Assembly (NCBI GenBank): GCA_948144175.1
Contig: CANXME010000105.1
Location: 62,001-126,000 of the forward strand
Direction of reading: 5' to 3'
DNA: 64,000 bases
Source of the DNA: Closterium sp. NIES-65
Lineage: Eukaryota; Streptophyta; Zygnematophyceae; Desmidiales; Closteriaceae
The notes beneath the pieces are model-generated. The model saw only the letters and a list, made by a program, of their open reading frames with translations, was not told the origin of the DNA and did no database searches. This document shows, in pieces, positions 1,234 to 33,979 of this stretch. A program made the translations under genes and the position numbers. Every line of letters starts with the position of its first letter. Position 1 is the first letter of the stretch.

Positions 1234-4200
1234 ATGGAGGGGTCGTTCGAGTCGTACAAGGAGAAGGTGCGCATTCGGATCTCCCTCCTTCGCGTCCTTC
1301 GTTCCGAATCCAGCCGTCCTCTGCTGACCATTAAAGAGCACACGAATGAATAAAGGCGTCTGGTCTCGAGCTCGAGCTACAAATTTCTAGACGCCTAGTG
1401 ATCCCATTTTCAGATCCATATCCTTGTTGTTTCGCCCCTTGCTGTGCGGCTCGGGCCGTTACTCGCGGCCCTCAGATCTGCGGCCTACATAGCTCTATCT
1501 GCCGCGCACCACATTGTTATCGTGACGGCGTCCCATCCCATGCTACTTTGATATGCCTGATTCTGCGAAACGTCTCACGTCGTCGCGTGCGATGACATTT
1601 CCCGTCGCGTGCGACGCCTGGTTCCTGTCGCCCGCCGTCGCAGGTGCTGCTGGGCGACGTGGCGTGGGACACGTACGTGACGGCGAAGCTGATCACGGGC
1701 ACGGACTTCCAGCTGCTGCGCCGCTACGACCACCGCTCCAAGGAGGTCCAGGCCGCGCTGCTCGAAGAGGCAAGCGCCCATTCCCCACTCCCCTTCCGTC
1801 CTTACTTCCTCGCTCCTCTCCCTTCCCCTCCTTTCCCTCTCTGCGTTTTTAAGACGTCTCAAAATTCTGAGACGCTACGACCACCGCTCCAAGGAGGTCC
1901 AGGCCGCGCTGCTCGAAGAGGCAAGCGCCTCAGCAACTGCCTCTCCGCTCCTCGCGCCTCTCTTTCTCCCTCTTCGGTTCTCGCGTTTATGCGTTTCTTT
2001 CGTCCTGGCCGCACGGCATTCTTCGGTCACCCTCGCCTGGTTCCCTACAAAGCGACCGTTTTTACGCATGTCGTTTCCCGTTACTGCTGTTGCGACTTGT
2101 GTCAGCGTCGCAGCTGTTCCTCCATAGCTCCATAGTATGCAACACTAAATGGCCCTGTCACAACTTGAGTGCTACCCCTTTTCTTCGGTGCCCTTACGGT
2201 TGTCGAAATTTGTCCCCTATTTTTGTCTGGTTCCACTCATTGGCCTGGCAGAACGGCGTCGGATACGTGCGCACGTTTATATCCGTACTGAAGAATGTAT
2301 TCAAAGAGGAGACCGTGGAGTACACCATTGCTCTCATCGACGAGCTTTTAACAAGTAACGGTTCTTGCTCTTGGCGTTGACGAACGCATAACGCAGAAAA
2401 CGAGCTCGTGCGTAGAACCGCAACTTGTAACTGGTATCATCATGTGTTGTCTAGTGAGCAAGTGTCGAGTGTAGCAGCGTGGAAAGCATTCTATTGTCTC
2501 CCACACGCCATGCGTTCATGCTGCCGCTTGTGTGTGCTGCAGGGGACAAGAAGAGGGCGCGCTTGTTCCACGATCCATCCATAACGGACGATGTCTATGC
2601 GCCCTTCATCAGGTGAGCGCCCTTCATCAGGTGAGCGCCCTTCATCAGGTGAGCGCCCTTCATCAGGTGAGTGAGCGCCCTTCATCAGGTGAGTGAGCGC
2701 CCTTCATCAGGTGAGTGAGCGCCCTTCATCAGGTGAGTGAGCGCCCTTCATCAGGTGAGTGAGCGCTTTTCATTCATCAGGTGAGTGAGCGCCTTTCATC
2801 AGGTGAGTGAGCGCCCGTCCTCACCCATCTCTTGCACACCCAACTCACCAGTCCCCCACTTCATCAACAACCCTATCCAACTCTGCACTGCCTGTCTCTC
2901 CACCATCCCACCATGAACTGCCCACCCTCCGCCATCGCAGACTGTTGGGGCACACCAACTGGTTCGTGCTGGAAGCCACGTCGCGGATTCTGCCCCTCAT
3001 CATTGTGTGAGTGCTCATCTTCTGCTTGTCGTGCATGCCGTTATGTGAGCACTGTTCGCTGTTTGCTGCTTCCCATGCATGCCATCGTGTGAGCGCTCTG
3101 CTTCCTGCTACCATGCATTTCTCTCTCATCATCGTGTGAGTGCCTTTTGCTGTCTGCTGCTTCCCGTGCATGCCTCTCTGCATCACGACGTCTGTACCTC
3201 ACCCCTGTGTATCCAGTGAATAGGAAACACTTGTCCACAGCACCTGCCCCTCCAATCATAATAACGTCCTTCCGTGCATCTCCCCTCCCCCCCTTAAATC
3301 ACCCCCTCTCCAACGGCCGTTCCCGCCTCGTGCCTGCCCGCCCACCAGCTCTCGCCCGCACAGCTCTTCCGCGCCTGCAGCAGCAGCTGGGGCAGAGACG
3401 CCCGCATCCCCCCCAGCAGGCGACATAGACTACGTGCTTGAGCCCTTCATTGCCTTTCTCTGCCACCAGGTGAGCCATGCCCATGACCTAGTGATCTCGT
3501 TTTCCCCCACAGCTCGTCCGCACTCGCAGCGTCAGCAGCAGCAGCACCAGCAGAAGCAGGGGAAGGGACGCCCGCGTCCCCCCCAGCAGGCGACATAGAC
3601 TACGTGGTTGAGCCCTTCATCGCCTTTCTCTGCCACCAGGTGAGTGCTCTGCCATGCCCACGTCCTAGTCATCTCGCTTCCCCCTCACCACCATATTTAC
3701 CCTTTCCCCACACCTCTCCGCCTCCCCATTTCCCTCCCTTCTGCCCCCAGCTGACTCGCCCGGTGCGCGCGGTGCCATCAGCCGTAACAGCGCTCGCCAC
3801 AACGCTCAGGGGCGTATTCGCTTTTAAGGCTCCTCAGTTATCAACCTTCACACATTTCCGTCTCTCCCCTCCCTCACTCCCTCCCCCAGCTGACTCGCCC
3901 GATGCACCCGGTGCTTGTGGTGCCAGCAGCCATAACAGCGCTCGCCACAACGCTCAGGGACATGTTTACTGTAGAAGCAGAAATCAACCCCCACACCTTT
4001 CCGCCTCTTCTCTCCCCCATCCCCACCCCCAGCTGACTCGCCCGGTGCACCCGGTGCGGGCGGTGCCAGCAGCCACAACAGCGCTGGCGCCAACGCGCAG
4101 GGACATGTCAGCTGTTGAGGCGCCTCATAAATCAATCCCCACACCTCTCCGCCTCTCCTTCCCCCTGCCTCCCCCCCTCCCACCCCCAGCTGACTCGCCC

Positions 4201-7200
4201 GGTGCACCTGGTGAGGGCAATGCCAGCAGCCATAACAGCACTCGCCACAATGCTCAGGGACGTGTCAGCTCGCTCCATCTTTGCCAAGGCTGATGGCGTG
4301 CGCCTGCACAGTCCCTCCTCTATCCCCACACATGTCCCCATCGCACCCTCCCTCCCTACCCCCCTCCCACCCCCAGCTGACTCGCCCGGTGCACCCGGTG
4401 CGGGCAATGCCAGCAGCCATAACAGCGCTGGCCACCACACTCAGGGACGTGTCGGCTCGCTCCATCTTTGCCAAGGCGGATGGTGTGCGCCTGCTGCTGC
4501 CCTACATTGCACCCGTGGCTGGCCAGAACCAGATGCAGGTGTGATGGCTGATGGTTTAATTCGTAATGGTGTGGTTTGTTATGGTGTGTGCTTTTGGATT
4601 CGGTTGTGTTGTGTGGTACCTGCTGCTTCCCTACATCGCACCCGTGGCTGGCCAGAATCAGATGCAGGTGTGATGGCATGGCATGTGGTGTGATGCGTTA
4701 TGGTGTGGTTCGTTTTGGTGTGGGCTTTCTCACACGTTTTTGCTTCTGCACTGCCTGCTGCTGCTGTACGGTGTGCCCGTGGCCGGCCAGAACCAGATGC
4801 CCCATGTGTTACAATGCATGCTCTTAGACAGCACTGCATGAGTGCTCAACGCCCTGACCCCATGCCTCTGTCTCTTCCTGTCTCACACCCCCCTCTCCCC
4901 CACCTCCCATCCTCGCCTCCTTTATTCCCCCCCCATTCAGCTGCTGTACGAGGCGGTGCTGTGCCTCTGGCTGCTCTCCTTCCACGAGCCTTCCCTGGAG
5001 GCCATTCGCCAGGCGCGCATTCTGCCGCGCCTCATTGACGTTGCCAAGAGCTCCGCTAAAGAAAAGGTGGGTAGCTGCGCTGACTTTTGACTCAACTCAA
5101 AAGTCAACTCATCATTCACCAGGCGCGCATTCTCCCGCGCCTCATTGACGTTGCCAAGGGCTCCGCCAAGGAGAAGGTAACGAGCTGGGAGCACAGGCAT
5201 AGCAGGCCAGATGTAGCATGGCTCCTGAGTCCACTCACTCCTCTCACTGTTCCCGCTCCACTCAAGTCATTTGAGGCATACTTTGTCTCGTTTTTTAGGC
5301 TAATAGCTTCGCCAGAGGAAGGAAAGAGCTCCCATTCTGTCACCTCCCTTCACCACTCCCCACCCTCCAACCCCTTTTCTCCATCTTGTCGCACCCCCCC
5401 TCCCCCTTCTCTCTCCACCTCCCCTCACGTCCCACAGATAGTGCGGGTGGCGTGGTGGTGCTGACGTTGAGCAACCTCATCATCTGCGGGCACCTGGGGG
5501 CATCGATGGTGGAGCTGGGGCTGCCAGACCGTCGCACAGCAACTCACTCCTCTGCGCCTCTCCCAACCAACCACCTTCTCACCCTCACATGTCACAGATT
5601 GTGCGAGTGGCGGTGCTCACCCTCAGCAATCTGATGACCCGCGGGCACCTGGGGGCATCAATGGTGGAGCTGGGGCTGCCAGACGGACGCACAGCAGCTC
5701 ACAGCCCTGCACCCCCTTTCACATCTCTTCACCGCTCTTAACCCCCGAACCCCCACCTCCCAACCTCACAGATTGTGCGGGTGGCAGTGCTCACTCTGAG
5801 CAATCTCATGACCCGCGGGCACCTGGGAGCATCAATGGTGGAGCTGGGGCTGCCCAAGGTCGTGCAGAGCCTCACACCTCTCCACCTCTCCCAACCCCCC
5901 AACCTCCCACCCACACGTGCCACAGATAGTGCGAGTGGCAGTGCTCACTCTCAGCAACCTGATGACCCGCGGGCACCTGGGGGCATCCATGGTGGAGCTG
6001 GGGCTGCCCAAGGTCGTGCAGAGCCTCAAACTGCACGCGTGGCACGACGAGGTGAGCTGGCAGCATGACGTAGCACGACGAGGTGAGCTGGCAGCATGAC
6101 GTGGCACGACGAGGTGAGCTGGCAGCATGACGCGGCACGACGAGGTGAACTGGCAGCATGACGTGGCGCTGGAGGTAAGCTGGCAGTATGATGTGGCAGG
6201 ACGAGGTGAGCTGGCAGCATGACGTGGCATGACATGGTGAGTGCCATGCCAGGGCATAATGCACACTCATGCCGTGAGCTGCAGCCTGCAGCTCGTTTCT
6301 TGTGCCCTGCACTCTCGTGCCATCTATGCATGCCTCGCCCCCCATCATCGTGCGTCCCCTCTCTGACCACAATACTCCCATCTGCCCCATCCATGCTTCA
6401 CGCTGCCCCTACCAGGATCTGAACGAGGCTCTAGAGGCGCTGGACGTGGGGTTGAGGCACAACCTGCGCGTGATGAGCTCGTTTGCCAAGTACTACCGCC
6501 AGGCCAGGAGGTGCTCTGAGGCGCGCTCACAAGCCTCATATCACACCGTCTTCCCTTCCTTCCCTCTCTGTTCCCTGCGCGTCTCACACTGCCACCATCA
6601 TCAGGACCTGAAGGAGGCTCTTGAGGCGCTGGACGTGGGGTTGAGGCACAACCTGCGCGTGATGAGCTCGTTCGACAAGTACCGCCAGGAGGTGCTGTCG
6701 GGCTCGCTCGACTGGACGCCCATGCACAAGGACGCGGCATTCTGGCGCGAGAATGTCATGCACTTTGAGGATAATGATTTCCAGGTATGTGGCTGGGTGG
6801 TGTGCGGTGCTGTGCGGTTGTGAGATTTATGGGGTTGACTGACTGGACGCCCGCGCACAGGATCTTCTGGCGGGAGAATGTGATGCACGTTGAGGATAAC
6901 GACTTCCAGGTTTGTGGATGGGTGGTGTGTGGTGAGTGCTGTGCGGTTGTGAGGGTCTTGGGGTTGCCTGACTGGACGCCCATGCACAAGGATGCGGTTT
7001 TCTTGTGCGAAAATGTCATGCACTTCGAAAACTACGACTTCCAGGTATGAGAGTCTGGGTGGTGTGCGGTACTGTGCGGTTCTGAGGGTGTCGGGCATGA
7101 GCCACGAGCCGTGCATGCTGGCAGTGGTGGCATGCCATGTCACGACCTGGGGCAGTTCATCTCATGTCTTATGCGCCTTAGACGTCTCATCCGTCCAACC

Positions 7201-7482: not shown

Positions 7483-8286
7483 GGGAGTAGGGGAGGGGGG
7501 TATGTTTCATACCTGCAGTGACGGGGGTGGGGACCCGGGAGAGGAGTGGAGGCAAGAGGTGGCAGGCAGTGATTGTTGCTGGCGACTGGGAGTGGCAGTG
7601 CAGCAGAGGGGTGTTGAGCTGCTGGTTTCCTGCCCTGTGTCTATGCATACAAAGCAACTCAACTCGCCGCGGATGTGCTGTAAATGCTCTGCTCATGCTG
7701 CTCTCTCTACCCATAATGCAAAGAGTATGCGACTTCGATGTTCACTACAATAGTCAGCATGTAAGTGTACCACATAGGGTAGTGTAGCTTGTTCCATAGC
7801 CACATGATGTTTGTTACACTATTCTACTCTTTGAGCTCTCCCTACATTAGCGATCCTTGTCAGACTACAGTGCTGGTTGAACTTTTCCTTTTGCACACCT
7901 GACAGTCCATGCATGCAACCATACATACAGATCTCCGTGCCAGCATTGCTGCTGGAAGCAACCAAAAAAGAATGTTGTTAACCGCTGGTTTTTCTGTAGC
8001 CCACATTTGTGTTTACTGTACAAACTCAATGCTGCTGCCAGTAGCAAGAGTGCAAGAACCACACTGCCACAGTTCCACCTCCTGTGCGAATGGTACCGTA
8101 CATTTGTGAGGCACCTCAAAATTTGTTTCATGGTATGGTACCAACCAAGCAGGTGAGCAGCCGGGACACAGGGAAAGCTGAGTGCCTGCCTGCCTGCCAG
8201 CAGCCCATGTGGGCACAAAGCCAGCCATTGTTTAAAGCGCATTGCAATCACTGCAGTCACTGTGGTTCACTGCGCCTCCCTGTGGT
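7483..8286. other. convergent 3' region VHA-H / PAA2
   Basis: Noncoding interval between the two stop codons, holding both 3' UTRs. A near-palindromic TGAGGCACCTCA lies at 8107-8118 and shorter inverted repeats surround it. I see no gene here. Confidence 0.5.
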
Positions 8287-11200
8287 TCACTGCGGTGCCT
8301 TGTGCAGTCGCAGCAGCAGCGAGCTGACCACCACGAGCACAGAGCTCCCTGCCATGAGCCCCCCTGCAGGCAAGGAAGGGGGGTGTAAGGAGGAGGGATG
8401 GTGGAAAAGGGAGAGGTGAGATCGGAGATGGGAGAGGGGAGAAGGTGGAGACAGGAAGCATGGAGACAAGGATATGGACTGAAATGGTGGCTGAACAAGT
8501 TGCAATGAGTGCTTAAAGCTCATTGGGCAATGATTACCATCCAAGCAAGGGTGAGCGTGATGATGACATCAGCAAGGGCTGGCGTGATTATTACACCAGC
8601 AAGGAGTCATTGTGATAGTCCTACCAGCAAGCGTGGGTGTGATACTCACACTAGTGAGGGTGAGCAAGATAACTATACAGGAAAGAGTGGGCGTGATAAT
8701 CATACCAGCGAGGGTGGGTGTCAGGGCGATGTCGTAGGCGAAGAGGAAGGCTCCGGCAGCGAGCGGCACGGCCAGGCAGTTGTATGCGAGAGACTTACAA
8801 ATTTACGCAAAAGTCAGCTGGTGAGCATGACAGTCGTACCAGCAAGCGTGGGTGTGAGGGCGATGTCGTAAGCCGGGAGGAAGGCCCCAGCGGCCAGGGG
8901 CACGGCGAGGCAGTTGTATGCGAGGGCCCATGCGAGGTTGAGACGCACTCGGTTCATTGTGGCCCGCGCTAGATGCACCGCCTCCACTAGCTGGTGGTGG
9001 GGAGGGGAGAGTGAGGAGAAATGAGCAGGGGAGAGTGTAGAGGGGGGGGAAGCATGGGAAGGGCCCAGGCAAGGTTGAAACGGACTCTGTTCATTGTGGC
9101 CCGCGCTAGGTGCACCGCCTCCACTAGCTGATGGTGGGGGGGAGGGCGGAGGGTGGGGTTGGTGGGAACGCAAGGAAGTGAGGCATGGCAGGGTGAGCAG
9201 GGAGAGGAGGGAGAAGAGGGAAGGGCAGTTGTATGCGAGGGCCCATGCGAGGTTGAGGCGCACCCGGTTCATTGTGGCTCGCGCTAGATGCACCGCCTCC
9301 ACTAGCTGGTGGTGGGGGGGAGTTGCGAGGGTAGGAACACAGAAGCGAGGCATGGGAGGATGAGTACGAAGATAAGGTGCGGATGTGGCAGAGAAACAAA
9401 GGAGGCAGGGAGGACAGGAGGGAGGGAGTGCTGAAGGAAGGGGAGGAGGACAGAGAAAACGGTTGAAAGCAGACAAAAACGAGTGATGGGACGGGAGAGG
9501 GGAGGCACTGACTGCCACCTATGAGGCGCCTCAACAGGCGTACCTGGGCGAGTCGGTTGACCAGCAGCACAAGGTCAGTGGAGGCGGCACCCAGGCGAGG
9601 TACGTAGGTCACACCTGGGTGAGTCGGTTGCCGAGGTCAGCGGCATCGGCAGCAGCACTCATGACGGCAGAGGTGGCACCCGGGGGAGGCACTGACTGCC
9701 ACTAGCGGGGCGCCTAAAAGGTCGCACTATCGTGGGACCTCAAAGGCCGCACCTGTGTGAGTCGGTTGCCGAGCAGCACGAGGTCAGCAGCATCGGCAGC
9801 AGCACTCATGACAGCGGAGGTGGCACCCGGGGGAGGCACTGCCACTCCCACGTCTGCACGGGCCAGGGCGAGGGTGTCGTTAATGCCGTCTCCCACCTGG
9901 TGTGTGGGGGGGGGGGGGAGGGAGAGGGGAGGGAGGAGAGGGACAAGGCAACGGCCAGAAGTACAATGAGCAGAGCTCATGACAGCAGAGGTGGTACCCG
10001 GGGGTGGTACTGCCACTCCCACGTGTGCACGGGCCAGGGCGAGAGTGTCGTTGATGCCATCGCCCACCTGGCGTCAGTGGTGGGGGACAAGGCAGCAGTG
10101 AGGACATGAGCCAGCTGCACAATGAACGACAATGATGGCGCCCGCTCATACGCTGCACCGCCCGCTAATACGCTGCACCGCACGCACGTACGCTGCACCG
10201 CCCGCTCATACACTGCACCGCACGCTCATACGCTGCACCGCTCAATCATACGCTGCACCGCCCGCTCATACGCTGCACCGCCCGCTCATACGCTGCACCG
10301 CCCGCTCATACGTTGCACCGCCCGCTCATACGTTGCACCGCCCGCTCATACGCTGCACCGCCCGCTCATACGCTGCACCACCCGCTCAGTGGCGGTTCTG
10401 CCACATCCATGTGCTGCTTGCCTCTCCATTCCCTCTCACCGTCCCCATTCACTCTCCACACCATCCTCCCCTCTTCCCACCCTCGCCCCCCTCTTCTCTT
10501 ACCATCGCCACGCTGTGCCTGTCTCTCAGCACGCCCTCCCCCTATTCCTCCCTACTCACCCACTCCCACTCCCTTCCTCCTCTCTCTCTCACCATGGCTA
10601 CACTGTGACCGTCCCGTTGCATGGTCTCAATCGCCTCCACCTTGCCCTCGGGAAGCAGTTTTGCCCACACTTTTTCTCACCTACTCCCTTCCTCCCATCC
10701 CCCCCGCCCTTCTCCCTTCCTCCACCCCACCCTCCCCCCCCCTTCCCTTCTTCCTCTCACCATCGCCACGCTGTGACCGTCCCGTTGCATGCTCTCAATC
10801 GCCTCCGCCTTGCCCTCCGGCAGCAGCCTTCCAAGAACCTTCCCGGGGCCAGCGATGCCAACGGCCTCGGCCACGCGCGTCACTGCAGCCTGCCTGTCGC
10901 CCGACAGCACCGACGCTGACACTCCCAGCGATTCCAGCCTGTGGAAGGTGGAGACAGAGCTTTTTGACTAACAAGATGTTTCAAGAATCAACCACACTTG
11001 CCACGCGGGTCACTGCTGCCTGCCGGTCGCCCGACAGCACCGCTGCTGATACACCTACTGATTCCAACCTGTGGAGGGTGCAGGGAGGAAGCGAGATCCA
11101 GAGCCTTTTGACTAACAAGGTGTTTCAAGAATCATCCACCTCTGCCACGCGCGTCACTGCGGCCTGGCGATCGCCCAACAGCACTGCTGCTGACACTCCC

Positions 11201-14200
11201 AGCGATTCCAGCCTGTGGGTGGGAAAATGGAGGGTGGGGAAGGAGGGATGGGACAGAGTCTTGTGACTTTCAAGACGCAAGTGCCTGTGCCACGCAAGTG
11301 ACTGCTGCCCTCCATCCCCCCACACATGACTGTGCAATTGACTCTACTGCACTCATGTCTGCTCAACAGCTCTCCACCACTCACCGGCTCACGGTCTCCT
11401 CTGCCTCGGCGCGCAGTGAGTCGCTCACACAGATGCATCCCAGAATGCCGCCCACACTCTTTCCCTCCTCCGTCGCCCCCCTCCTCTCCCCCTCTCCTCC
11501 CTCGCCCGTGTCCCCCTCACTCCTCTCCTCCTCGCTCCTCACTTCACCAACATACACAAACGTGTGGCTGCTGCTGCTATCCCTGCTGCCCCAATCCCCT
11601 CCCTCCACACTCCCTCCCACGCCCCCACACTCCCCTCTCAACACCCCCTCTTCCACTCTCCGCCATTTCTCCCTCTCCCCTTCCACCTCACTCCCTTTCC
11701 CGCTCCCTCCCCGCCCCTCCCTCTCCCTTGTCCCCCCCAAGCAGTGCTTCACCACCCAATCAAAGCCTCCCACGTGAATCTCCCTCCCGTCCACTACAGC
11801 CACCACGCCCCGCCCGGGAACAGTGAGAGCAGACGAAACGGGCGGCAGCGGGGCGGCGGAGAGGCGGGCGGCATGGGCGGTGATGGCGGCGGCTACTGGG
11901 TGGCGAGTGGTGGCCTCTGCTGCTGCTGCCAGTTGCAGGAGAGACACAGTTGCAGTATCAGTGGCAGTATCTGAATCAGTAGCAACGGCAGTAGCAGTGG
12001 TGGTGGTGTGTCTGCGGCTTGATGCTGTGGCTGGGTCTCGGTTGAGGGAGGTGGAGTGGGATTGTGAGTGGTGGAGAGTGGTGGGCGGCAGGTGGGCTGC
12101 AGGCACCACAGCAGACACCTGGGGCTGTCCTGCTGTCAGCGTGCCGGTCTGGGGGAGGGGGAGAGGTGGAGAGGTGGAGAGGAAGGACATGCGGAAGGGG
12201 AGGGCCAAGAGGAGGGAATTTGAGAAGAGTCTGTCAGCAGAAGGAGATTGGCTGCAACTCGGATGAGCTAGTATAGTAGGTGCTGGTTGCATTCTCTCTC
12301 TCTCTCTCTCGTCTGGTCTGGTAACCAGAGCCATCTGGTAACCAGAGCCATCTGGTAACCAGAGCCATCTGGTAACAGCAATCAGGTGCGCTCACCTCAC
12401 CTCGCCTCGTCTCACCTCGAATAGCGTCTCCCACTGACCTTATCAAACGCCACCACATCGACTCCTGCCAGCCTCTCCAACGCGTCACACAGAGCATCTC
12501 ACCTTGTTAAACCAAAACAGAAACCAGGTGGTCCCTCCCGTCACACCTAGCGTCTCCCACCGACCTTGTCAAACGCCACCACATCGACTCCTTCCAGCCT
12601 CTCCAACGCGTCACACAGAGCATCTCACCTTGTTAAACCAAAACAGAAACCAGGTGGTCCCTCCCGTCACACCTAGCGTCTCCCACTGACCTTATCAAAC
12701 GCCACCACATCGACTCCTGCCAGCCTCTCCAACGCGTCACACAGTGCATCGCTCCTTCCAGCCTCTCTCACCTTGCCACCTGCCACCAGGTGCCTCGCTG
12801 CACCTAGCGTGTCTCCTCTCGAAGCCTCAGCTAATCTCACATGACTCACTCACCTTGTCAAACGCCACCACATCCACCGCTGCCAGCCTCTCCAACACGT
12901 CTCCCCCGCGCAGCAGCAGCCCCCTCCTCGCACCTGCCATGCACACACACACGCATCCATCCATGTGAATGAGGTCATGGGAAGCGTGTTCAGAGTCGAC
13001 GCAAAACACCACATCTACTGCTGCCAGCCTCCCCCGCGCAGCAGCAGCCCCCTCCAAACTCCTGCCATGCACGCATGCAGGTTCTTATACTTGAGAGTTA
13101 CGCAAGTTACCAGAGTTGTAGCAGATCGTCTTAAGAGACATTGTTTGGCATGGGACGGGTGGGTGGGTGGGTGGGATATGAGGGCATGGACGAGTGGTTG
13201 CGAGGCCAGAGGGCAGAGACAGGGAGAGGTGTGCTGCGGTGCAGGGAGGTGTGGTGCGGTGCAGAGAGACCGTACCCAGGGACGTGCCAACGAGGATGGC
13301 GGTGGGCGTGGCGAGGCCGAGCGCACACGGGCAGGCGACCACCTGGGGTGGGGAGTGAGAAGCAGGGATCAAAGGGAGCAGACCAGCAGGTGCAGACCAG
13401 CAGGTGCAGACCAGCAGGTGCAGTGGAGTCAGGGAGGTGGGGACAAAGGGGTTTGGGAAGCATGGGGTTGGGTATAAAAGGGGTGGGGATTGGAGACGCA
13501 CATGTGGGAATGGCTGGGAAGGAGGAGCAAGAGAATTGACGTAGTGAAAAGGCGATGCTTGTTTCAGTAACAGCACGCTGATGGCGAGGCGCAGGCTGAG
13601 CACGAGGGGGTCAGAGTTGACTTTGCGGCATCTCAACCGCCGTGTCCTTTCTCACCAGCACGCTGGTTGCACTCCACCTCACTAGAACTAACAGTAATGG
13701 TAATGGTAATGGTAATAATAATGGTAATGGTAATAATAATAGTAAAGGTAATTGTAATAGTAATGGTAATGTTAATGATAGTGGTAGTGGTAGTGGTAAT
13801 AGTAATGGTAATTATAATGGTAAAATAATAGTAATGGTAATGGTAATGACAATGGTAGTGGCAGTAGTAATGGTAATGGTAGTGGTAGTGGTAGTGGCAA
13901 TGGTAATAGTAGTGGTAATAGTAAAGATAATGGTAGTGGTAATGGTAACGGTAATGGTAGTGGTAATGCTAATGGTAATAGTAATGGTAGTGGGAGTGGT
14001 AACGATAATGGTAGTGGTAATGGTAATGGTAATGGTACTAGTAATTGTAATGGTAAAAGTAATAGTAATGGTGGTAATGGTAATGGCAATGGTAGTGGCA
14101 GTTGTAATGGTGATTGTAATGGTAATGGTAGGGGTAGTGGCAATGGTAATGGTAATGGTAATAGTTAAGGTAATTGTAGTGGTAATGGTAACGGTAATAG

Positions 14201-17200: not shown

Positions 17201-20200
17201 ATGCTTATGCATGCAACATGCTACGTGCCCCATGCCCCGTGCCCCATGCCCCGTGCTCCATGCCCCATGCCCCGTGCCCCATGGCGTGTGGTGTGTGCAC
17301 ATGCATGAATACGCATGCTCAGCTCAGTTTCCCGCATGCTACATGCCCCATTCCCGCGCAACGTACGCCTGTGCACGTGCCATGGCCACTCACAGGCTCA
17401 TCAGTGAAGGAGGAGTCGAGGCCCAGGTCCGGGTACAGCTGTGCCGCCTGCACAGGTGGGGGGGGATGGATGCAAGGTGGGAAGAATGGAGGCGGAAGAA
17501 GAAGAAGATGGGAGGAAGTGGGGCTGGAAACCTAGGCCGAGGTCGGGCAGGGTGCAGCTGTGCCACCCACCTGCACTGTGGGAGACGGATGGAAGGGGGA
17601 GACAACAAAGTGGAAGGAGAAGAAGAAGACAGTGTGGGAAGAGGCTTGTGGGCGAGGATGGATTGGCGTGCAGAAAGGGCTCTGGGGGAGGGCAGTGGAG
17701 GAGCGGACACTGACCACACCAATGCACAAGGCAGCGAGGGAGGTGAGGCTCACGCGGGAGAGGGGGGGGAAGAGGAGGAAGGCGGATGGAGTAAGGGAGG
17801 TTTGTAGAGGAGGGGGGCACGGCACCTACCACCCCAATGAAGAAGGCAGCGAGGGAGGCGAGCCCCACGAGGGAGTTCATGTTGGGTGACCCACGCAGCA
17901 GCGCTTTCATGCCGTCCACAAGCAGGCCTGGGGAGAGGGGTTGTGGGGAAGGGGGGTGTGGTGTGGGGGAAGGGCGGGAGGAGGGGGAATAGTTAAGGAG
18001 CATCAACAAGCAGCGCCTTCATGCCGTCCAGCAGCAGGTCTGGGGAGAGGGGTTGTGGGGAAGGGGGGTGTGGGGGTGAAGGGCCACAGGAGAGGGGGTA
18101 GTGGCACGGCACGGGACATGAGAAGGGAGACCAAACCGAAATGGATGCGAAAACGAGTGGGCGATGCAGGAGTTGATGGGGAGGGGAAGAAGATGCCGCC
18201 CCATGTTTGGTTTCTGCGGAGGGGAAGAGCAGTAGCACAGGCACGGGACGCACGCAGCCCTGCAACAGCAGCAGCTCATGCAGTCGTCCTTCATGCCACC
18301 ATGCCACCATGCCAGTGATGCCACTATACATACATCTACTACCAACCACTGCCAGAGTATCTACAGCCTACAGCCTACAGCCTACAGGGCAAATCAAGCA
18401 CCCAGCATGCCACACACACACAGTACCTCTGGCGGGCCCCAGCAGAGCGACGGCAGCAATGGCGGAGCGTGCCCTCACATCGTCCAGCACCGCCATCCAT
18501 GGGCCTGGCGTGGAAGAGGGGGAACAGACGAGTGGCAGTGGGGGAGAACGGAGGCACGCAGACAGGGGAATGCGGGCTTGAGGAATGTGCTTCAACAGCA
18601 GCAGCGTCACGGCAGCGATGGCCGACCGTGCTCTCATGTTGTCAAGCACTGCCATCCATGGGCCTGGCAGGGGAGAGATGGGGCAGACACATAGGTGGAG
18701 GGATGTGCATATAAGGAGTGCTATGTTGAGGCGCCTCAACAGCAGAGCGACGGCAGCGATGGCAGAGCGTGCTCTCACGTCGTCCAGCACCGCCATCCAT
18801 GGGCCTGGTGGACAGGCAGGGCGGATGAGGGAGGCATGCAGACACGGAAGGAGGCAGGCAGGGGAGGAACGCAAGATCTTTGAGTGCAGAGACAACAACG
18901 AAATAAAAGCGAAAGAAAAGGAAAGATATGGGAACAGACAGGAGGTGTATGAATGTAGAAGTATGTACCGTGTGCAAGGGCGTGCAGCCCCATGCCGTGG
19001 AAAAGGTGTCCCACGTGGTGCGCGCAGCACAGCGCCGCCAGCGCGCAGGTGACTAATGAGCTGACCGTGCACCTGTGTATATGTATGGAGCAGCCTGTGT
19101 GTGCCCTACTTACCGTGTGCAAGGGCATGCAGCCCCATGCCATGAAAAAGGTGTCCCACGTGGTGCGCGCAGCACAGCGCCACCAGCGCGCAGGTGACTA
19201 ATGAGCTGACCGTGCACCTGTGTATATGTATGGAGCAGCCTGTGTGTGCCCTACTTACCGTGTGCAAGGGCATGCAGCCCCATGCCATGAAAAAGGTGTC
19301 CCACGTGGTGTGCGCAGCACAGCGCCGCCAGCACGCCCGCCACCGCCACATCCACGCGCGCGCGCGCCACTGCGCGCTGCCTCCGCTCCGCCGCCTCCCT
19401 GCGCCGTGCCTCCGCTGGTGGGGGATGTGGCGGGGTGTGTGGGGGAGGGGGTGCCTAAACACGAGGGGGCGGATGGAGGAGAAGCGTGGAATGCGGGTGC
19501 ACGTCCACGCGCGCACGCGCCACTGCGCGCTGCCTCCGCTCCGCCGCCTCCCTCCGCCGCGCCTCCGCTGGTGGGGGATGTGGCGGGGGGTTGGGGGGGA
19601 GAGAGCGATGGGAGACGATGGAGAAGGGACGAGGGAGGTGGACAAGCGAAGGGAGAGAGGGAGACGCTAGAGGAATGATGGGAAGCGAAGCGCCAAGTGG
19701 GGGGATAATGCTGAAGTCCTGTCTCTGTCTGTCATACCCCCCACCCCGATACCGTCTCCATCCCTCTCCTCTGCTCCCCTCCACATCGCTCCCCTCAACA
19801 TCGCCCCCCTCCCCACTCTACCTACTTCGTCCGTCCCTACCTTCTTCGTCCGCCTCCCCCGCGCGCCGCACGGAGCAGGGGAACCCCGCGTCTTCCACCA
19901 GCTCCGCCAGCTCCGCGCGCAGCGCCTCAAGCTCCGCCGCCTCGTCGCCCGCCTTCGCAATAGCGGGGGGGAAAGAAGCGGTGGCGGAAGGAGCGGCGGA
20001 AGCGGAGGCGGAAGGGGAAGCGGAAGCCTCAGGCGCGCGGAGGGAGACGGTAACAGCGGCGGATTCGGTGACGAGATTGACGCCCGCGCTAATCACGCGC
20101 GGATGCTCCGACAGCACTTGGCGCACGGCGGCGGCGCATCCCCCGCACATCATCTCGCGCACGTCCAGCAGCACCACCGCCGACGTTTCCGCTTCCGCTG

Positions 20201-21632: not shown

Positions 21633-24600
21633 ATGTTCGACTCAGATTGTATCCATTTCCGGCTCGCCAAGGTTCCCTGTTATTTCGTTCCTGTTCGGCC
21701 CCTCCCACCACTGGGCTCAGTGAACAACGAGGACGATGCGCAGGGGAGGCGGAGAAAGGGCAAGGCGCGCAGCACCAAGGGGGAAGAGCACGATCCGCGC
21801 AACGCGCAGGCGCATTCCCACGGTGTGATGTGTGGCATGGTTTGTTCACGTCTTCTAGTCGCATAACTGGTGCGGATAGCCGTGGCGTTGTTACTTGCTC
21901 CCATTTGGCCGGTTAAAGCAGTGCTGGTCGCACCTGGTCACCACGTGTCACATTCTCGCAACCCTCTTGAGCTGCAACAGCAGCCTTTGCCCAGCTCTCA
22001 CTTACCCTCGTCTTAAATTCTGCCATTTCACGTTCCTCTCTTGTTCCCCCCACCCCGCTGCAGCCGTGATCGCCTCGTCGCTCATGCTACCACCAGACGC
22101 TCTGCCGCTCTCAGGCAAGGTACGACAAATTTGTTAGGCGCCTCAAAAGTCCCCGCTGCAGCCATGATCGCCTTGTCCCTCATGTTACCACCAGACGCTC
22201 TGCCGCTGTCAGGCAGGGTACGTCGCAGCCGCCAGCCAGGTAATCAGCTTATTAGGGACCGTTGTTTTTCTCCTTCTTTCACAAGGCCATCTTCTGGTCA
22301 GCCTGTGTTCCACTGCAGCTTCGTTGCTCCTGTCCCTCTCAGATTCCCTCTTTTTTTACTCTTCCCTGCCCAATCCTCCCTTTCCACTTTCCGCTCGCAC
22401 TCATACTGACATCGTCCCCCCTCCCCACCTCCCCCTCTCTAAACCTTCCTCCCCCATCCTGACCTTCCTTTTTGGCCATGCTGCTTGCATCAGCGCAAGG
22501 CGAGGCGGTGGGTGAACGAGCGCCTGCTAAAGGACATGGCGGGGCCTCTTACTGGGCCAGACGTCACCTCGCTCTATGCGCCGCCACCCTGGGGTACGCA
22601 CAACGTCCCCTCCCTCTGAGTGTTGCCGCCCTTGGGTAGGTTGTCGTAGCTGCCGTAGCGAGCGCCTGCTAAAGGACATGGCGGGGCCTCTTACTGGCCC
22701 GGACGTCACCTCGCTCTATGCGCCGCCGCCCTGGGGTAGGTTGCAAGCAAGGCGTGTTAGAGCAAACCCAACACCACCCGTTCTCTCCCGCTCCGCACAT
22801 CTCCTCTTCGCCTCTTCCGATCACAACTCTCTCTCGTATCAGTCCCACATCTCTTGCACTTATCTCTCTTCCTTACATCACCCCTGTTCCTCCTACCACC
22901 TCCCTCGCAGGTGAGAAGACAGAGAGGCCAGTGTTGGAGAGGGTGTCAGACGTGGCGCTCGCCACGCCCTTTGAGGCGCCTCTGGGTGGCTCTGCCGTCC
23001 TCTCTTCCACTCTTCAACCCCTTTTTCCCCTGTTCCTCTCCCTCCTCGCATCATGTTTCCATGCAGGCGAGAAGACAGAGAGGCCAGTGTTGGAGAGGCT
23101 GTCAGACGTGGCACTCTCCACGCCCTTTGAGGCGCTCCTGGGTAGCTGTGTTCGTAGTACTGTCTAACCCCTTTCTCCTATTCCTTCTCGCATCATGTCT
23201 CCCTTGCAGGAGAGAAGACAGAGCGGCCAGTGTTGGAGAGGCTGTCAGATGTGGCGCTCTCCACGCCCTTTGAAGCCTTTGTGTGCCAGCAATACCTTGC
23301 AGGGGCTACTTTCAACAAGGTGCGTGCAGCACGACTGTTAGATAGAGGACCTCCTTTTGCCACACGGAATTTTGCCTTTTATCCAATGGTCTGTGGATGG
23401 GCGCGACGAGCTAGCTAATTTCCTCCTTGTGGTCACTCGCCTCACACCCCCCACCTGCGCACACAGCTGCCATCCCGCAAGGCCAGGAGCAAGCAGTCTC
23501 GGGAGCAGGCCAGCAGCGGCAACCAGCATTCAGCAGCAGCAGCAGGAGGGGGAGCAGCAGCGGTGGTGGCGGCATCGCAGGCAGCGTGGAGGCGGGTGCC
23601 GGAGGCAGCGAGAGGGGCCATGCGGCGCGCTGCAGGCTGGGTGGTGGTGGGGACTGTTGAGGTGAGGTCGGGCAGTTAGTGTGTGATGTGTGATTGTATC
23701 TAGGCCCATGTGTGTGTTGTGCGACTGGTCATCTGATCCCTCTTGCTGACCCCACCCACTGGTCCCTCCCGCTCCCTCAGGCTCTTCTGGTGGCATTCCT
23801 GCACCCGCCACCTGCTGCCACTGCTGCCACCACTGGCGCGACGAGCAGCCAAGTGGACGCATCTTGCAGTGGCAGGGGAGAGCTGAGCAGTGAGGATGGC
23901 AGGGGGGACGAGAGCAGCATTGTGTCGTGTGCAGCAGGCGTTGCTGGGGGTGATGGAGCAGAGGGGCAACAGCAACAGATGGAGGAGGCACAGGAGGAGG
24001 GTGGAGAGGGGTCGCAGGAGGGGGGTGAGAGTGGGAGTGGAAACACGATTGGGAGTGTGTTGCCGGAGTGGTGTGTGCAGGCAGCATGGAGCGACGTGGA
24101 GAGTGCTTTGGAGGCACATGGAGGGAAGCTGAAGGGGGGCGTGAGCGGTGGTGCAGGTGCAGCAGACGGGGAGGCGGACGGCATGGGGAGGGGAGGGGAG
24201 GGAAGGCAGGTGCTGGTGTTTGCTGCAGACGATGCCTTCCTCAGACTGTTGCTGCACGGCATGTGCCAGGTGGGTGGCTGGCACGTGCTGTTGATGCCTA
24301 TGGTGTGTGGAGCATGGCATGGCATGTGCCAGGTGCTGATTTTTGCTGCAAATTACGCCTTTCTTAGACTGCCTCATGTGCCAGGTGGGTAGTGCACTGT
24401 GCATGCTGTGTGCCAGGTAGGAATTGCATGGTGTGTGCCAAGTGGACGGCCAAGGGTGTGCTGCACTTCCATCCTTCTCAATTTCACTCCATTTGAATAT
24501 GCTGCACTCCTTACATCAACATCCCCACTCTCGCCATCTCACCGCTCTCCGCTCACCCTTTCCTGCCATTTTCCTCCTCCTCTCTGCCCCACATTCCCCC

Positions 24601-25686: not shown

Positions 25687-25799
25687 ATCCTTATCCCTTT
25701 CGCCACATTTCTTCCTCTCTTTTTTTCCTTTTTGCCTCCCGCATGCCATTGCCTTCATCGCCACCAGCATTTGCTGCGCGCTCGACCGCGCAATCATAG

Positions 25800-26010: not shown

Positions 26011-29000
26011 GGGATGGTCCGTCGACCTCATTCTTGCAGCATTCTCTTTGCTGTCCGCGGCGCATTCGCTTTCTCCCCTCTTCCCCCCCTCCCCGCCCTC
26101 CCCCCCCTCCGTCGACCGCATTCTCTTTGCTGTCCGCAGCGCATCCGCATCCGCTATCATGCCGCGCCGTGGTTACGAGCTCATTGTGGTGTCCGTGCGG
26201 CACGTGTCTTTCTGCGGAGATAGCGTTCTGCTGACTCATTGCATGCAATGCTGACGTCATTCTGACTCATTGCAGGCCACGATGACGCCATGGCTATCAT
26301 TCTTGCCGCCCACACCCCCTCGCTGCACCTGCTTGGCATCAGCACTGTTCACGGCAACCAATCAGTGAGTGCCATTTGTAAAAGAGACCCGTCTGCGCTT
26401 CTTCTGGCTTTAACTGCCCTACTCTGTCCGCTTCAATCCGTCCCGCAACATTGCGCCAAGTCCCAATGCAGACCCTCACCCCAATCCCACATTCTGCCGC
26501 CCACCCTGCAACCCCCAATCGTGCCAGGTGCAGAAAGTGACAATCAATGCGAGGCGAGTGCTGCTGATGTGCGCGCGACCCGACATTCGTGAGTGCTGTT
26601 GGGGCTGGTTCCGATCTGGGCGGCTGCAGGGCGCCTGTCGGGCGCCTGTCGGGCACCTGTCGGGCGGCTGGGGCGCCTCTCTCTAGGGGCGCCTCTCATG
26701 CTGCTTGCCTCCTTGCTCCTCTCATGCTGCTTGCCTCCTTGCTCCTCTCATGCTGCTTGCCTCCTTGCTCCTCTCATGCTGCTTGCCTCCTTGCTCCTCT
26801 CATGCTGCTTGCCTCCTTGCTCCTCTCATGCTGCTTGCCTCCTTGCTCCTCTCATGCTGCTTGCCTCCTTGCTCCTCTCATGCTGCTTGCCTCCTTGCTC
26901 CTCTCATGCTGCTTGCCTCCTTGCTCCTCTCATGCTGCTTGCCTCCTTGCTCCTCTCATGCTGCTTGCCTCCTTGCTCCTCTCATGCTGCTTGCCTCCTT
27001 GCTCCTCTCATGCTGCTTGCCTCCTTGCTCCTCTCATGCTGCTTGCCTCCTTGCTCCTCTCATGCTGCTTGCCTCCTTGCTCCTCTCATGCTGCTTGCCT
27101 CCTTGCTCCTCTCATGCTGCTTGCCTCCTTGCTCCTCTCATGCTGCTTGCCTCCTTGCTCCTCTCATGCTGCTTGCCTCCTTGCTCCTCTCATGCTGCTT
27201 GCCTCCTTGCTCCTCTCATGCTGCTTGCCTCCTTGCTCCTCTCATGCTGCTTGCCTCCTTGCTCCTCTCATGCTGCTTGCCTCCTTGCTCCTCTCATGCT
27301 GCTTGCCTCCTTGCTCCTCTCATGCTGCTTGCCTCCTTGCTCCTCTCATGCTGCTTGCCTCCTTGCTCCTCTCATGCTGCTTGCCTCCTTGCTCCTCTCA
27401 TGCTGCTTGCCTCCTTGCTCCTCTCATGCTGCTTGCCTCCTTGCTCCTCTCATGCTGCTTGCCTCCTTGCTCCTCTCATGCTGCTTGCCTCCTTGCTCCT
27501 CTCATGCTGCTTGCCTCCTTGCTCCTCTCATGCTGCTTGCCTCCTTGCTCCTCTCATGCTGCTTGCCTCCTTGCTCCTCTCATGCTGCTTGCCTCCTTGC
27601 TCCTCTCATGCTGCTTGCCTCCTTGCTCCTCTCATGCTGCTTGCCTCCTTGCTCCTCTCATGCTGCTTGCCTCCTTGCTCCCTGCCTCTTCACCACCAGC
27701 TGTGTTCTGCGGGCAAGCATCCCCCTTCATGCGCGCCAGGCAGCACTGTGCTGAGATCCACGGGGAGTCGGGGCTGGATGGGCCTGACTGGGGGGAGGGG
27801 GAGGCGCAGGGGGAGGGGGAACGGGGGAAGGGAAAGGGAGGAGGAGCAGGGACGAAGGAGGACGGAGAGGAGAAAGGCGAGAGGGAGGAAACCCCACTAT
27901 GGGGGACGGCAGAAGAGGAGGCAGAGGAAGTAGCAGAAATCAAGAGGGAAACGGGTGGGGGTGGGGTGGAGGGGCGCAAAGAAGGGGACGAAGATGGGGA
28001 TGCGAGGGGAGAAGGGGTGGGGGAGGAGGAAGATGTACCGACAGTGACTCACATGTATCGCCACATTCGACAAGCGTTTCTAGAGAGGCAGGCAGCGTTG
28101 AGAGAGTGGAAACAGGGGACAGAGCCAAGTGACTCGAACAGCAAGCAAGGGGCAACGAAGGCAGGGGCAGCTGAGGATGGGCCTTTAGCCAAGAGGAGAA
28201 GGGAGGGGGAAAATGATCATGTGATAGGGGTGAATGGGGCAATGGCAGATGGCGCAATCACAGACCGGGCAGTGGCAGACGGGGCAGCGGTGGTAAACGG
28301 TGGTCCCCCAGCTGCTGACACAGCGCATGCTGTCGCTGCTGCTGCTGTTGGCACCGCTGTTGGCACTGCTGTTGGTACCACCGCTGCAGTTGTGGGAGGG
28401 GAGAAGAAGGAAATCTGGGAGGGGCGGAGGGAGAGGGTGGCGTTGGTGTGCACAGGCAGTCTCACCAACGCTGCTCTGCTGCTCACCGTGCACCCCCTGG
28501 TCAAGAGCATGATCGAGGTGAGTGGGCATTCTGAGTGGTGTGTTGCGGTGAGTGGGTGTTGTGTGGTGAGTGGTGAGCGCCTGATGCGGGGTGTCTGGTT
28601 GGGTCAGCAATTGCGGAAGGCTCTCAACCTCTGCTGCTCACAGTGCACCCCCAGGACAAGCGCATGATCGAGGTGAGTGGGTGGTGTGAGGTGGTGAGTG
28701 CACAGTGTGTAGGTGGATTAGCTGCCATGGATGTGCCGAATCGTGGCAGGGGACGAGGGAGAGGATGGCTCTGCTGTGCACACTGCTTTCCCGGGTCAGG
28801 GGATTCCGGCCGAGGGGTTGAGAGGGGTTGAGAGGCTGTGGTCATGCCAAGCGGGCCTCATTGCAGATGTGAGGACCAAGTTCGGTTGTTCCTAAATGCA
28901 TGCTTCCTTCCTACCTCTTTTTGAGTCGACTCAAAACCAAGTTCGGTTGTTCCTAAATGCATGCTTCCTTCCTTTGATTTCCTCCCTCTTCCATTTATAT

Positions 29001-32000
29001 TCCTCTCGCCTCTCTGCCCCCCTTTTTCCTCCCTCTCCCCTCTCCCCTACCCCCTCCCGCCCCATGCGAACATCTTCACGTCCTTCTCACATCTCCCGTC
29101 ACACGCCAACACGAACAACTCACCAAGATTGTCCTAATGGGTGCGTGCCACCCACTGCAACCGCTTGTCACCGCACTGTTTGTTTCCCCTTGTACTCTTC
29201 GCCTTCATGACTCTTCCTCCCCTGATCTGCCTTATTCCTCCTGCCCCATTCTCTTCTTCCTGTTTCCATGTCTCTCTCCTCCTCTTTACTTCCTCGCTAC
29301 CTCCTTCCCCTTACAACTCTCCCATCCCATCCCCCTCTTCTCTCTTCTCGCCCTTCACTCCTCACCCTCATCGCCCCACAGGAGGAGCTCTTGGTCTCGG
29401 CAACACTGGTACGACTCCAGTGGTTTAGTTTAGGGTGCCTAGGCCTCCTTGCACCACTTTGCACCTCCTTGCACCTCCTTGCACCGGGCGCCTTGCACCT
29501 CTTCGCATCTCCGTGCATCTCCTTACACCTTTATCCTTCACCCACATACTCTGTTTAGTCACTCTGATTGGCTCCATTCACCTCTCATTGCATTCCTTGT
29601 TTTCGAATCAGAGGCATCACTTTTGCTTTCAGAGATGCCTCAAACCAGACTACTGCCTTTCTCTTGTTCCCGCATTTTCCTCTCTCTTGTTCCCGCATTT
29701 TCCTCTCTCTTGTTCTTGCATCCGCATATCCTCATCTTCTTCTCGCCCACATCACATTCCTGGCAGGCCCAGTAGCGGAGTTCAACATCCAGGTGCGGTG
29801 GAGTGGGGTGGGGTGGGGTGGGATGCAGTGGGGATGGTACTGCTGGGGTGGAGAGGAGGTGGTGCTGGTATCATGCGCACTGATGGACTTCAAATCGTGT
29901 CTCCCTCTTGCCATGCGTTCCTGGCAGGCCCAGTAGCCGAGTTCAACATCCAGGAGCGATGCAGGGGGGGTGGAATGTAGGGGGGAGGGGGGGGGAGGAA
30001 AGGGGGGTGGTGGGATTCATGTTGCTTTCCCAATATCAAAATGCAATCCACTGCGGCCCTACCCTCTCTCTGCCCTCCACTTCCCTCCTATCCCTTCTCC
30101 TTCTCGTCACCTCTCTTTCCTCTTCTACCGGTTTCAATCGCTCTCGTCACACTTCGATTTCCCCACCTTCTTCATTTGCCTTTCCCCTCATCCCCTCCCC
30201 TCCTCCCTTCCTCTCCTCCGCTCCTTTCCTCCCCTCCCACCCTCCCCTCCTCGCCTCTCCCCTTCCAGTGTGATCCAGAGGCAGCCTCCATTGTGTTCAA
30301 CAGCGGCTGCCCGCTCACAATGGTACCCCTAGAGGTATGCAGAACCGCACTCACAGCACTGTCCTCATTCCCACACTCAGTCACACCCGTCTTGATACGC
30401 ATACCAGGGTACAAAGGGACACCCAGAATGTGTTCAAAAATGGCTGCCCGCTCATAATGATGCCTCTGGATATACGCAGAACCACATGAACGGTGCAGTC
30501 CCAATACCCATACACACCCACATCTATATCCAAAGGAGCAGCCTCCAGTGTGTTCAACAGCGGTTGCCCACTTACCATGGTACCACTGGAGGTGAATTCT
30601 TCCTCCTTATGTCCCCTCCCTGTCAACATGCCATTTTAACTATCATGATCTGCCCTCTCGCACTGCTCCACTTCAGCCTGCTTCCATCTCCCTTCCCTCC
30701 ATCTCACCACCCTCTGCCTTACCCCTCGTGTCACTCACACGGCCGTATCTACCCTCCAGCCGATGCTCATGTCCCGTCGCCTCTTTTAATTGGGACCTCT
30801 GCCCCGGCCGTTACCTCCCCCTTCAGGTCACGCACACCGCCCTGCTCTACCCGTCAGTTGCTGCTCGCATCTCCTCTTGTCCTCCTCACTGCCCCATCTG
30901 CGCCCCCTCCTCCACTCATGCCGCTCCCCCTCCTTCTTTAGCAACCATATATAACTTTGCTGCTGATGCCACCCAAAGCACTGATGGTTCTGCTACGGCT
31001 GTAGCCGCTACAACTGCTGACGCCAGCCTCACAGCTCCCAATGCCACTGCTGGCAGCTGCCTGGGCTGCTATCGGGGGAAAAAACTCCGGCAAACAGGTG
31101 AGCTTTGAGTGGACTAAACATATGCTGCTACAGCCGCCGGTGATTCTGCCATCCAACTCACACGCCATGCTGCCAGTGCTGGCGGGTGCCTTGAATGCGA
31201 TAGGGGGAGAAAACTCCGACAAACAGGTGAGTGACACGTGGCTTGGCGCGACTATACGCCCATCGAGTGCCGAGTGAACAAAAAGCTTTGCGTTCTGCTG
31301 TTGGGACTTGCTTTGCTTTCGGAACGAATCTTGCAGTCCGTGCCTTGATGCACTTGTTCCCTCATACGTACCCCTCCATGTGTTGGGCTTTCAACACCTT
31401 CCACCTCTACACTCCTTTTGAGGCGCCTCAAAAGGCTTTCAACACCTTCCACCTCTACACTCCTCTCCCCTCTGCCTACCCTCTCCCATTCTCTCCCTCC
31501 AACCCCTTTCCCACATCGCAGTCTCTGCGTTGATGCATTTCTTCGCCCGCACATACCTTGAAGTGTTTGGTTTCCAGCACCCACCCCTACATGACCCCTG
31601 CGCTCTCGCCTTCGTCATTGCCCCGTCTCTCTTCAAGGTACGGTCCTACCAGCCTCCACTCAGGTTTCCACCATCTCTCCACCATGTTTCCGCCATGTCT
31701 CCACCACTCCCTCCTGCACGACCCTGTGCTCTCGCCTTCGTGATCGCCTTGTCTCTCTTCAAGATAAAGCCCCATAATCCAGTGTCTTACCTGCATTCCC
31801 TCCCTTCACACCAACTGACCGCACATGTCTCAGTGTTCCGTGTTCCCACATGTTCCATATCACTCCCCCTGTGCTCCTCACTCCCCTGCGCTCATCACTC
31901 ACCCATTCACACACCCCCCATCGCTCTGCCACCTCCCTGTCTGCAGACGGAGCACCTCCGAGTCGACATTGAGACCAAGAGTGAGGTGAGCCACTCCTTA

Positions 32001-32964: not shown

Positions 32965-33979
<1,015 letters not shown>

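Follow-up and report, generated by a model that had tools for sequence, protein, structure and literature searches.

Closterium algae are closely related to land plants. In the assembly of Closterium sp. NIES-65, we analysed a 64-kb stretch of DNA (C105:62001-126000; hereafter, the window) in which a short palindrome recurs. The first 32 kb of the window includes genes for V-ATPase subunit H and for a PAA2-type copper ATPase (minus strand), the exons of both having been read by eye. According to the original prediction, the palindrome marks the joints of local tandem duplications. The exact 12-mer TGAGGCGCCTCA lies at 4116, 9522, 18727 and 31419, which agrees with the four exact cores that had been predicted; the second spans 9522-9533, the value given earlier (9532-9543) being 10 too high. 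With up to three mismatches allowed, TTTTGAGNCGNCTCAAAA was matched 10 times in the window, compared with 0.13 expected, and none of 100 shuffles reached 10. All ten matches fall within the first 32 kb. Loop-free perfect palindromes with arms of at least 9 nt (overlaps reduced to the longest) were found only at 18724, 28919 and 31414, and all three belong to this family.

At 8 of the 16 places examined, a repeat copy begins no more than 10 nt from the right edge of the palindrome (1847, 4113, 5082, 12989, 18724, 22131, 28919 and 31416). At 3819 and 22969, the repeat copy begins 12 and 76 nt on, respectively, within exon arrays, and no hugging repeat was found at 8104 or at four weak 12-mer matches (5020, 26666, 35677 and 36466). 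The site at 9519 has a distant repeat only: the best within 200 bp is 20 bp long and its second copy begins 146 bp past the palindrome. The two sites described as youngest do consist of perfect palindromes and identical repeats, but the repeats measure 37 and 30 bp rather than 38 and 31 bp (Table 1). The proposed link to duplication joints was drawn too broadly. Fifteen of the 19 local duplications in a BLAST list for 1-32.8 kb, which is incomplete, lack a palindrome-like joint (at best 9 of 14 fixed bases), so the palindrome marks only a subset of joints. Exon-sized local tandem duplications, with units ~100-340 bp apart, lie at 5356-6036, 12422-13075, 18966-19336 and 8909-9320; their joints are mostly without the palindrome, 12989 being an exception. 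Local duplication seems to be common in this region of the window.

Table 1. Palindromes and flanking repeats in the window (window coordinates; a point stands for no strand)
Feature	Position	Strand	Remarks
Perfect 22-bp palindrome, GCGC centre	31414-31435	.	Outer two bases on each side shared with the repeats; 18-bp form at 31416
Repeat copy 1, 31.4-kb insertion	31386-31415	.	30 bp, 100% identical to 31434-31463
Repeat copy 2, 31.4-kb insertion	31434-31463	.	30 bp
Perfect 18-bp palindrome, TCGA centre	28919-28936	.	
Repeat copy 1, 28.9-kb insertion	28876-28912	.	37 bp, 100% identical to 28937-28973
Repeat copy 2, 28.9-kb insertion	28937-28973	.	37 bp
Palindrome with 2 mismatches, GCGC centre	22131-22148	.	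Repeats 22053-22124 / 22151-22222 (92%)
Palindrome, 18 bp self-complementary, 2 mismatches to core, GCGC centre	18724-18741	.	Repeats 18598-18667 / 18742-18808
Decayed palindrome, TCGA centre, absent from the original prediction	12989-13006	.	Repeats 12866-12947 / 13007-13075
Decayed palindrome, exact 12-bp core 9522-9533	9519-9536	.	20-bp repeat 9499-9518 / 9683-9702
Decayed palindrome	8104-8121	.	No flanking repeat found
Decayed palindrome, TCGA-like, GAC/GTC outer arms	5082-5105	.	Repeats 5003-5068 / 5113-5178
Decayed palindrome, exact 12-bp core	4113-4130	.	Repeats 3983-4112 / 4131-4269, in tandem exon array
More heavily decayed palindrome, earlier unit of the 4113 exon array	3822-3839	.	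TAAGGCTCCTCA at 3825-3836
Palindrome with 1 mismatch, ACGT centre	1847-1864	.	Repeats 1716-1778 / 1867-1929

We counted the palindrome in the whole assembly, which comprises 874,075,685 bases in 2,400 contigs (consistent with the genome size of 876 Mb reported for NIES-65 in PMC10407611). The palindrome is far more abundant than the window shows: TTTTGAGnnnnCTCAAAA occurs exactly 30,327 times, compared with 4 for the reversed string. The corresponding counts are 24,964 versus 0 for TTTTGAGNCGNCTCAAAA and 10,778 versus 36 for TGAGGCGCCTCA. Resolved by centre, the TCGA form TTTTGAGTCGACTCAAAA has 13,080 copies, the AATT form 2,601 and the CCGG form 4, and each reversed string has 0. The reversed TCGA string is itself a perfect palindrome of equal composition. 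As the reversed single-centre strings are all perfect palindromes, palindromes of such make-up are not enriched per se. The other copies with an NCGN centre, 11,880 by subtraction, are GCGC, ACGT and imperfect forms. Four palindromic centres were thus found (TCGA, AATT, GCGC and ACGT), and the difference between AATT and CCGG indicates that they represent discrete families. In addition, a GCGC form with a one-base asymmetry, TTCTGAGGCGCCTCAAAA, has 458 copies (249 forward and 209 reverse), which suggests inheritance of the sequence rather than fresh folding at each site, this being the single one-base form counted.

Copies of the palindrome lie inside the spans of the V-ATPase subunit H and PAA2-type copper ATPase genes and on contigs of up to 2 Mb. 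Their distribution across the genome looks uneven: 16 stretches (L150-L165, 148 kb) are without an exact copy, where the genome average predicts about five, and hold a single AATT copy with one mismatch (L153). A scan of 272.5 kb for the half-site TTTTGAG returned 114 matches, of which 53 lack an exact partner; these are imperfect copies, array copies and scattered unpaired half-sites, and no widely separated paired ends were recognised. Matching stretches also occur in a viral contig collection (11) and in a prokaryote collection of 257 billion bases (at least 120, compared with ~60 expected by chance for 16 fixed bases, on a rough estimate). We took these matches, whose loci were not inspected, as background of about chance order.

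At clean sites, the two repeat copies are separated by the palindrome and a few extra bases. Examples of such inserts are TTTTGAGGCGCCTCAAAA, ACTTTTGAGTCGACTCAAAAGTC (at two loci), GTGACTTTTGAGTCGACTCAAAAGTCAC and GAGTGACTTTTGAGAATTCTCAAAAGTCACTC; no A-rich or simple-repeat tail was seen in them. The palindrome has the core TTTTGAGxxxxCTCAAAA, where the centre is TCGA, GCGC, ACGT or AATT, and ranges from 18 bp to 52 bp. The TCGA copies often extend to GTGAC/GTCAC and the AATT copies to arms such as GAGTGAC/GTCACTC, and the longest perfect palindrome seen, at 52 bp, is an ACGT copy at L192. Hereafter, A denotes the duplicated target, P the palindrome, and X and C the outer flanks, such that a clean site reads A-P-A.

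To quantify the association of the palindrome with direct repeats, we used a sample of fewer than 1/400 of the genomic copies, mostly from contigs C6, C9, C10, C13 and C21. At those sites that were fetched with short flanks, repeats of more than ~75 bp are undetectable; stretches L147-L149 were picked because of their palindrome matches. By an ungapped scan, about half of the sampled copies (30 of 61) were flanked on each side by a direct repeat no more than 15 nt away; of 1,500 positions drawn at random from the gene half of the window, 47 were. The 61 copies have exact arms and distinct contexts, include array members, and in four cases have a non-palindromic centre. When one site per cluster was compared with controls displaced by 350-900 bp in the same loci, the values were 10 of 18 and 8 of 111 (P = 5e-6). 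In this sample, the predicted association with direct repeats therefore held. Under a looser rule (repeat within 20 nt), the share of exact copies with a repeat was 42 of 54.

The length of the repeats is not fixed. Beside exact palindromes they measure 13-137 bp (42 sites, array units included), mostly 13-46 bp, the longest occurring in arrays. Among the strict cases, the shortest is 11 bp and the longest single-site repeats are 71 bp, the range within the TCGA family being 11-71 bp. Base counts at 39 repeat borders revealed no target-site or endonuclease motif visible by eye.

The palindromes and their repeats decay together, as the original prediction of a time course had it. Among the 67 repeat-bearing sites, the identity between repeat copies fell as palindrome mismatches rose (Spearman -0.44, P = 1.7e-4). 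A recognisable repeat was present at 42/54, 13/25, 10/19 and 2/9 of the sites with 0, 1, 2 and 3 palindrome mismatches, respectively. As array units are among these rows, the rows are not fully independent. Such graded decay bears on the possibility that the palindromes are an artefact of assembly or library preparation. Adapters or chimeric reads can yield short fixed palindromes, as is generally known. The tracking of decay with repeat divergence and the differences between forms at the central CpG contradict this explanation, as does the same structure in a protein from the assembly of another strain, described below. We consider an artefact scarcely credible.

That protein, P0124 of strain Naga37s-1, is a V-ATPase subunit H that reads AVVDVHKQA-LRRLKT-AVVDVHKQA, i.e., repeat-palindrome-repeat. 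LRRLK is possibly one reading of the core TTGAGGCGCCTCAAAA or TTGAGACGTCTCAAAA. Four further proteins, P0121 (Naga37s-1), P0122 (NIES-65), and P0123 and P0125 (Yama58-4), carry no insertion at the corresponding site, and P0124 was the sole match to the peptide patterns among the 120 proteins scanned. The comparison is consistent with a filled and an empty site in different strains at the level of protein. The check for empty sites that accompanied the original prediction succeeded for proteins only, in one other strain. Diverged matches on contigs C2077 and C1413 were considered as a paralogous empty site of the 31.4-kb insertion and rejected, as only the palindrome and a pyrimidine run are common to them. 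Peptides derived from the palindrome had no match in 120 hAT proteins, nor did the patterns match in 8 Closterium PAA2-type proteins.

Some sites occur as arrays. On contig C2242, the region from ~69300 to 107003 is a near-identical second copy of the window region (95-100% identity in the parts compared; 99% over 3.7 kb), representing either a recent segmental duplication or an uncollapsed haplotype. In this copy, the 30-bp repeat and 18-bp palindrome of site 31416 are repeated every 48 bp, with 15 repeat-palindrome-repeat matches listed and as many as 17 implied by their spacing, whereas the window has a single A-P-A. Elsewhere, A-P arrays have units of 37, 42, 53, ~66 and 90 bp. Minisatellites with 24-bp and 20-bp units were also seen at L143 (1235-1500 and 2393-2540) around a half-decayed TTTTGAGGCGCCTAAAA or around TTTTGAGGCACTTTT, and at L176 (20-100) a 24-bp unit consists of partial palindromes fused head to tail, which suggests merged or truncated inserts.

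Such arrays raise the alternative that a palindrome already in place, as a cruciform or a cut site, repeatedly provokes duplication of the adjacent DNA. The frequency of A-P unit arrays agrees with this alternative, as does the variation in A-P copy number between the window and its near-identical copy on C2242. At L134, moreover, the two joints of a triplicated unit hold different palindromes, one with a GCGC centre and one with an ACGT centre. Duplication of a unit that includes P should nevertheless yield A-P-A-P, and the clean single sites are A-P-A; for the same reason, a pre-existing recognition site for a nuclease or recombinase, one of the three readings first offered, fits poorly. In the sole contrast between strains, that of P0124, the palindrome and the second repeat copy are also present or absent together. 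We regard fragility at a pre-existing palindrome as improbable as a general explanation; it may explain array growth rather than origin.

Returning to insertion, the A-P-A structure and the strain contrast together argue for the order X-A-C to X-A-P-A-C. What is inserted appears to be a sequence that has spread rather than one made from local DNA, because a few identical palindromes recur at thousands of places. Of the three readings first offered, the one that fits best is a tiny palindromic mobile element whose target duplications are very long, in view of the discrete high-copy families, the identity of the insert with the palindrome, the filled and empty proteins, and decay in step with divergence.

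The outer arms of the palindrome provide a further constraint. They vary between copies yet tend toward complementarity within a copy. Over the outer eight positions of 46 sites from all families, 182 of 368 cells were paired, compared with 118 +/- 8.7 after shuffling, and none of 5,000 shuffles reached the observed value. For the 22 TCGA sites alone, 90 of 176 cells were paired, compared with 67.8 +/- 5.7 (again 0 of 5,000). Because the arms are complementary yet copy-specific, a hairpin state is suggested: the palindrome may pass through a hairpin of single-stranded DNA or RNA, with one of its arms correcting or templating the other. The same variation, together with the self-complementarity of intact centres, would be expected if each palindrome were made anew at its locus by a 3' end that folds on a self-complementary tip and copies itself. 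Such snap-back synthesis is hard to hold as a complete account, since separate loci share the core TTTTGAG..CTCAAAA and particular outer arms, and CCGG centres are nearly absent. The asymmetric form TTCTGAGGCGCCTCAAAA, if it spreads as such, would exclude a de novo origin. We judge this alternative very improbable.

Overall, the data are best read as ultra-short palindromic insertions at widely staggered breaks, the filled-in ends of which became the repeats, and we consider this reading rather probable. The palindrome would enter a break with two nicks ~11 to 70 or more bases apart, and fill-in of the overhangs would duplicate the target, turning X-A-C into X-A-P-A-C. Fill-in of widely staggered ends would be the simplest route to repeats of many lengths. 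Through unequal exchange or slippage between the A copies, A-P-A could then expand into minisatellites of the form (A-P)n-A, with P and A subsequently decaying by point mutation. The single A-P-A of the window probably preceded the array state on C2242. Two agents are candidates, both of them possible: nicking and reverse transcription of the retroelement type, or capture of a hairpin fragment by end joining.

Staggered breaks are equally central to an alternative in which a break with long overhangs is end-joined, fill-in duplicates the target, and an abundant palindromic fragment is ligated in as a passenger. Several observations fit such repair filler, namely the many lengths of the repeats, the ragged ends of the inserts, the borders without a motif visible by eye, and the many local duplications here that are without the palindrome. 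Moreover, in mouse cells, nicks paired 46 nt apart lead to tandem duplications by end joining, according to the available part of PMC5730883, such that fill-in of staggered ends has an experimental parallel. The difficulty lies in the fixed sequence. Filler made locally by end joining varies from joint to joint, whereas here a few identical palindromes recur genome-wide, and thousands of copies with just four centres demand a persistent and specific source of fragments. Repair filler, the remaining reading first offered, therefore accounts for the ragged ends and varied repeat lengths, as staggered breaks leave them, and not for the fixed sequence; we consider it unlikely. Work by Schiml et al. 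in 2016 is said to concern tandem duplications from paired nicks.

Several observations weigh against palindromic insertion as we propose it. The strict repeat test failed for 31 of the 61 sampled copies; in some, arrays or indels confused the scan, and others have no repeat. Among further AATT sites (L201-L205), one of five passed, two more had repeats by eye, and two had none within 70 bp. The sampled sites were drawn largely from a few contigs. Random positions on satellite-rich contigs passed the test in 242 of 1,000 cases, and in a first null, 356 of 2,000 random positions passed, compared with 27 of 54 sites; satellites and arrays overwhelmed both nulls, so that random positions in the gene half of the window and displaced controls took their place. 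Arm pairing is modest for ACGT (10 sites; 53 of 5,000 shuffles reach the observed value) and AATT (4 sites; 195 of 5,000), and is not significant for GCGC alone (8 sites; 1,360 of 5,000). At some joints, P is accompanied by 10 to 70 additional bases, such that simple A-P-A does not describe every site, and the unfixed repeat lengths and ragged insert ends are unlike the products of known transposases. No longer relatives with the same ends were recognised in the 272.5 kb scanned, as distinct from the whole genome, and no enzyme search was made. The gene model of P0124 has other unaligned residues just upstream of the insertion. Finally, the two palindromes at the joints of the triplicated L134 unit, which fit a fragile site, would be an odd coincidence under independent random breaks and are not fully explained.

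Among known systems, the nearest in kind are the mobile GC clusters of yeast mitochondria. In the available part of PMC4478555, these are very short, palindromic, dispersed, hairpin-forming families that are present or absent at homologous positions; GC42 has a two-base (AG) target, and the mechanism is left open. The Closterium families are likewise short, dispersed and palindromic, and their base pairing is kept by covariation, as in mobile hairpin elements. They differ in compartment, number and target duplication: mobile hairpins of this kind occupy organelle DNA, whereas the tens of thousands of copies described here lie on nuclear contigs that carry protein-coding genes and are often bracketed by duplications of 11 to more than 70 bases. 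The double-hairpin elements of Allomyces mitochondria are also organellar mobile hairpins.

In miniature inverted-repeat transposable elements (MITEs), the terminal repeats enclose an interior, and the length of the target duplication is constant within each superfamily. Like MITEs and foldback transposons, as generally known, the Closterium insertions are non-coding, high-copy inverted repeats flanked by direct repeats; unlike them, they show almost no interior in clean inserts and have duplications of unfixed length. Target duplications do vary in length in target-primed insertion by long and short interspersed nuclear elements or Penelope-type elements, again from general knowledge, and in this respect the Closterium sites agree with them. 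In the 18-bp palindrome, however, a tail, promoter or 5'-truncation polarity cannot be seen, and the duplications are longer than usual. Introners, as described in the available part of PMC9860276, are also small, non-autonomous insertions spread in genes of diverse eukaryotes. Introners become introns, and their target duplications, in some families, are 3-9 bp, shorter than those found here. Tandem duplications from paired nicks arise from breaks with overhangs of tens of bases (PMC5730883, available part), as proposed here, yet a fixed palindromic family occupies the joint in Closterium. A full-text search, whose scope excluded most subscription papers and preprints held only at bioRxiv, returned no paper recognised as describing such an element, and the available text of the Closterium genome-size paper (PMC10407611) contains 0 occurrences of 'palindrom', 'introner' and 'inverted repeat'. 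On these comparisons and searches, the insertion process matches none of the known mobile elements compared; a cautious view would class it as a kind of mobile hairpin element.

The window also holds other repeats and mobile elements. A 27-bp satellite of ~300 copies occupies 55896-64000, to the end of the window, with a second block of like units at 52245-53057; a 26-bp minisatellite has 38 copies at 100% match (26692-27681), and a TC dinucleotide run of ~1 kb (510 units) spans 32968-33977. Copia-like retrotransposon frames lie on the minus strand at 39753-44546, as recognised by eye from translations, no family search having been made. A hAT-type transposase frame (53389-55152) has 97% identity to a Closterium sp. 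NIES-65 protein; its relatives carry PF04937 and PF05699, and the best 120 of its 248 matches are all Closterium proteins.

In its fullest form, the proposal is that the nuclear genomes of Closterium carry mobile DNA without an interior: a bare self-complementary hairpin of 18 to ~50 bp that is copied as a hairpin, enters at nicks tens of bases apart and leaves a tandem duplication at many of its insertions. We advance this form tentatively, as somewhat less probable than not. If it is true, the palindrome, with its more than 30,000 exact copies, would rank among the main sources of new minisatellites and of local duplication of exons in these algae. Proteins of eight Closterium strains are present in the database, and their genomes could therefore be compared for filled and empty sites. 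If insertion as proposed is right, genes in an algal genus have been shaped by a process whose traces are a tiny palindrome of fixed sequence and a target duplication tens of bases long. The copies would then amount to a natural archive, in high copy number, of the healing of staggered breaks, and would reveal a direct path from a point insertion to a tandem array, with A-P-A, A-P arrays and decay as its visible stages. They would also represent an unusual nuclear counterpart to the unexplained mobile hairpins of mitochondrial DNA.

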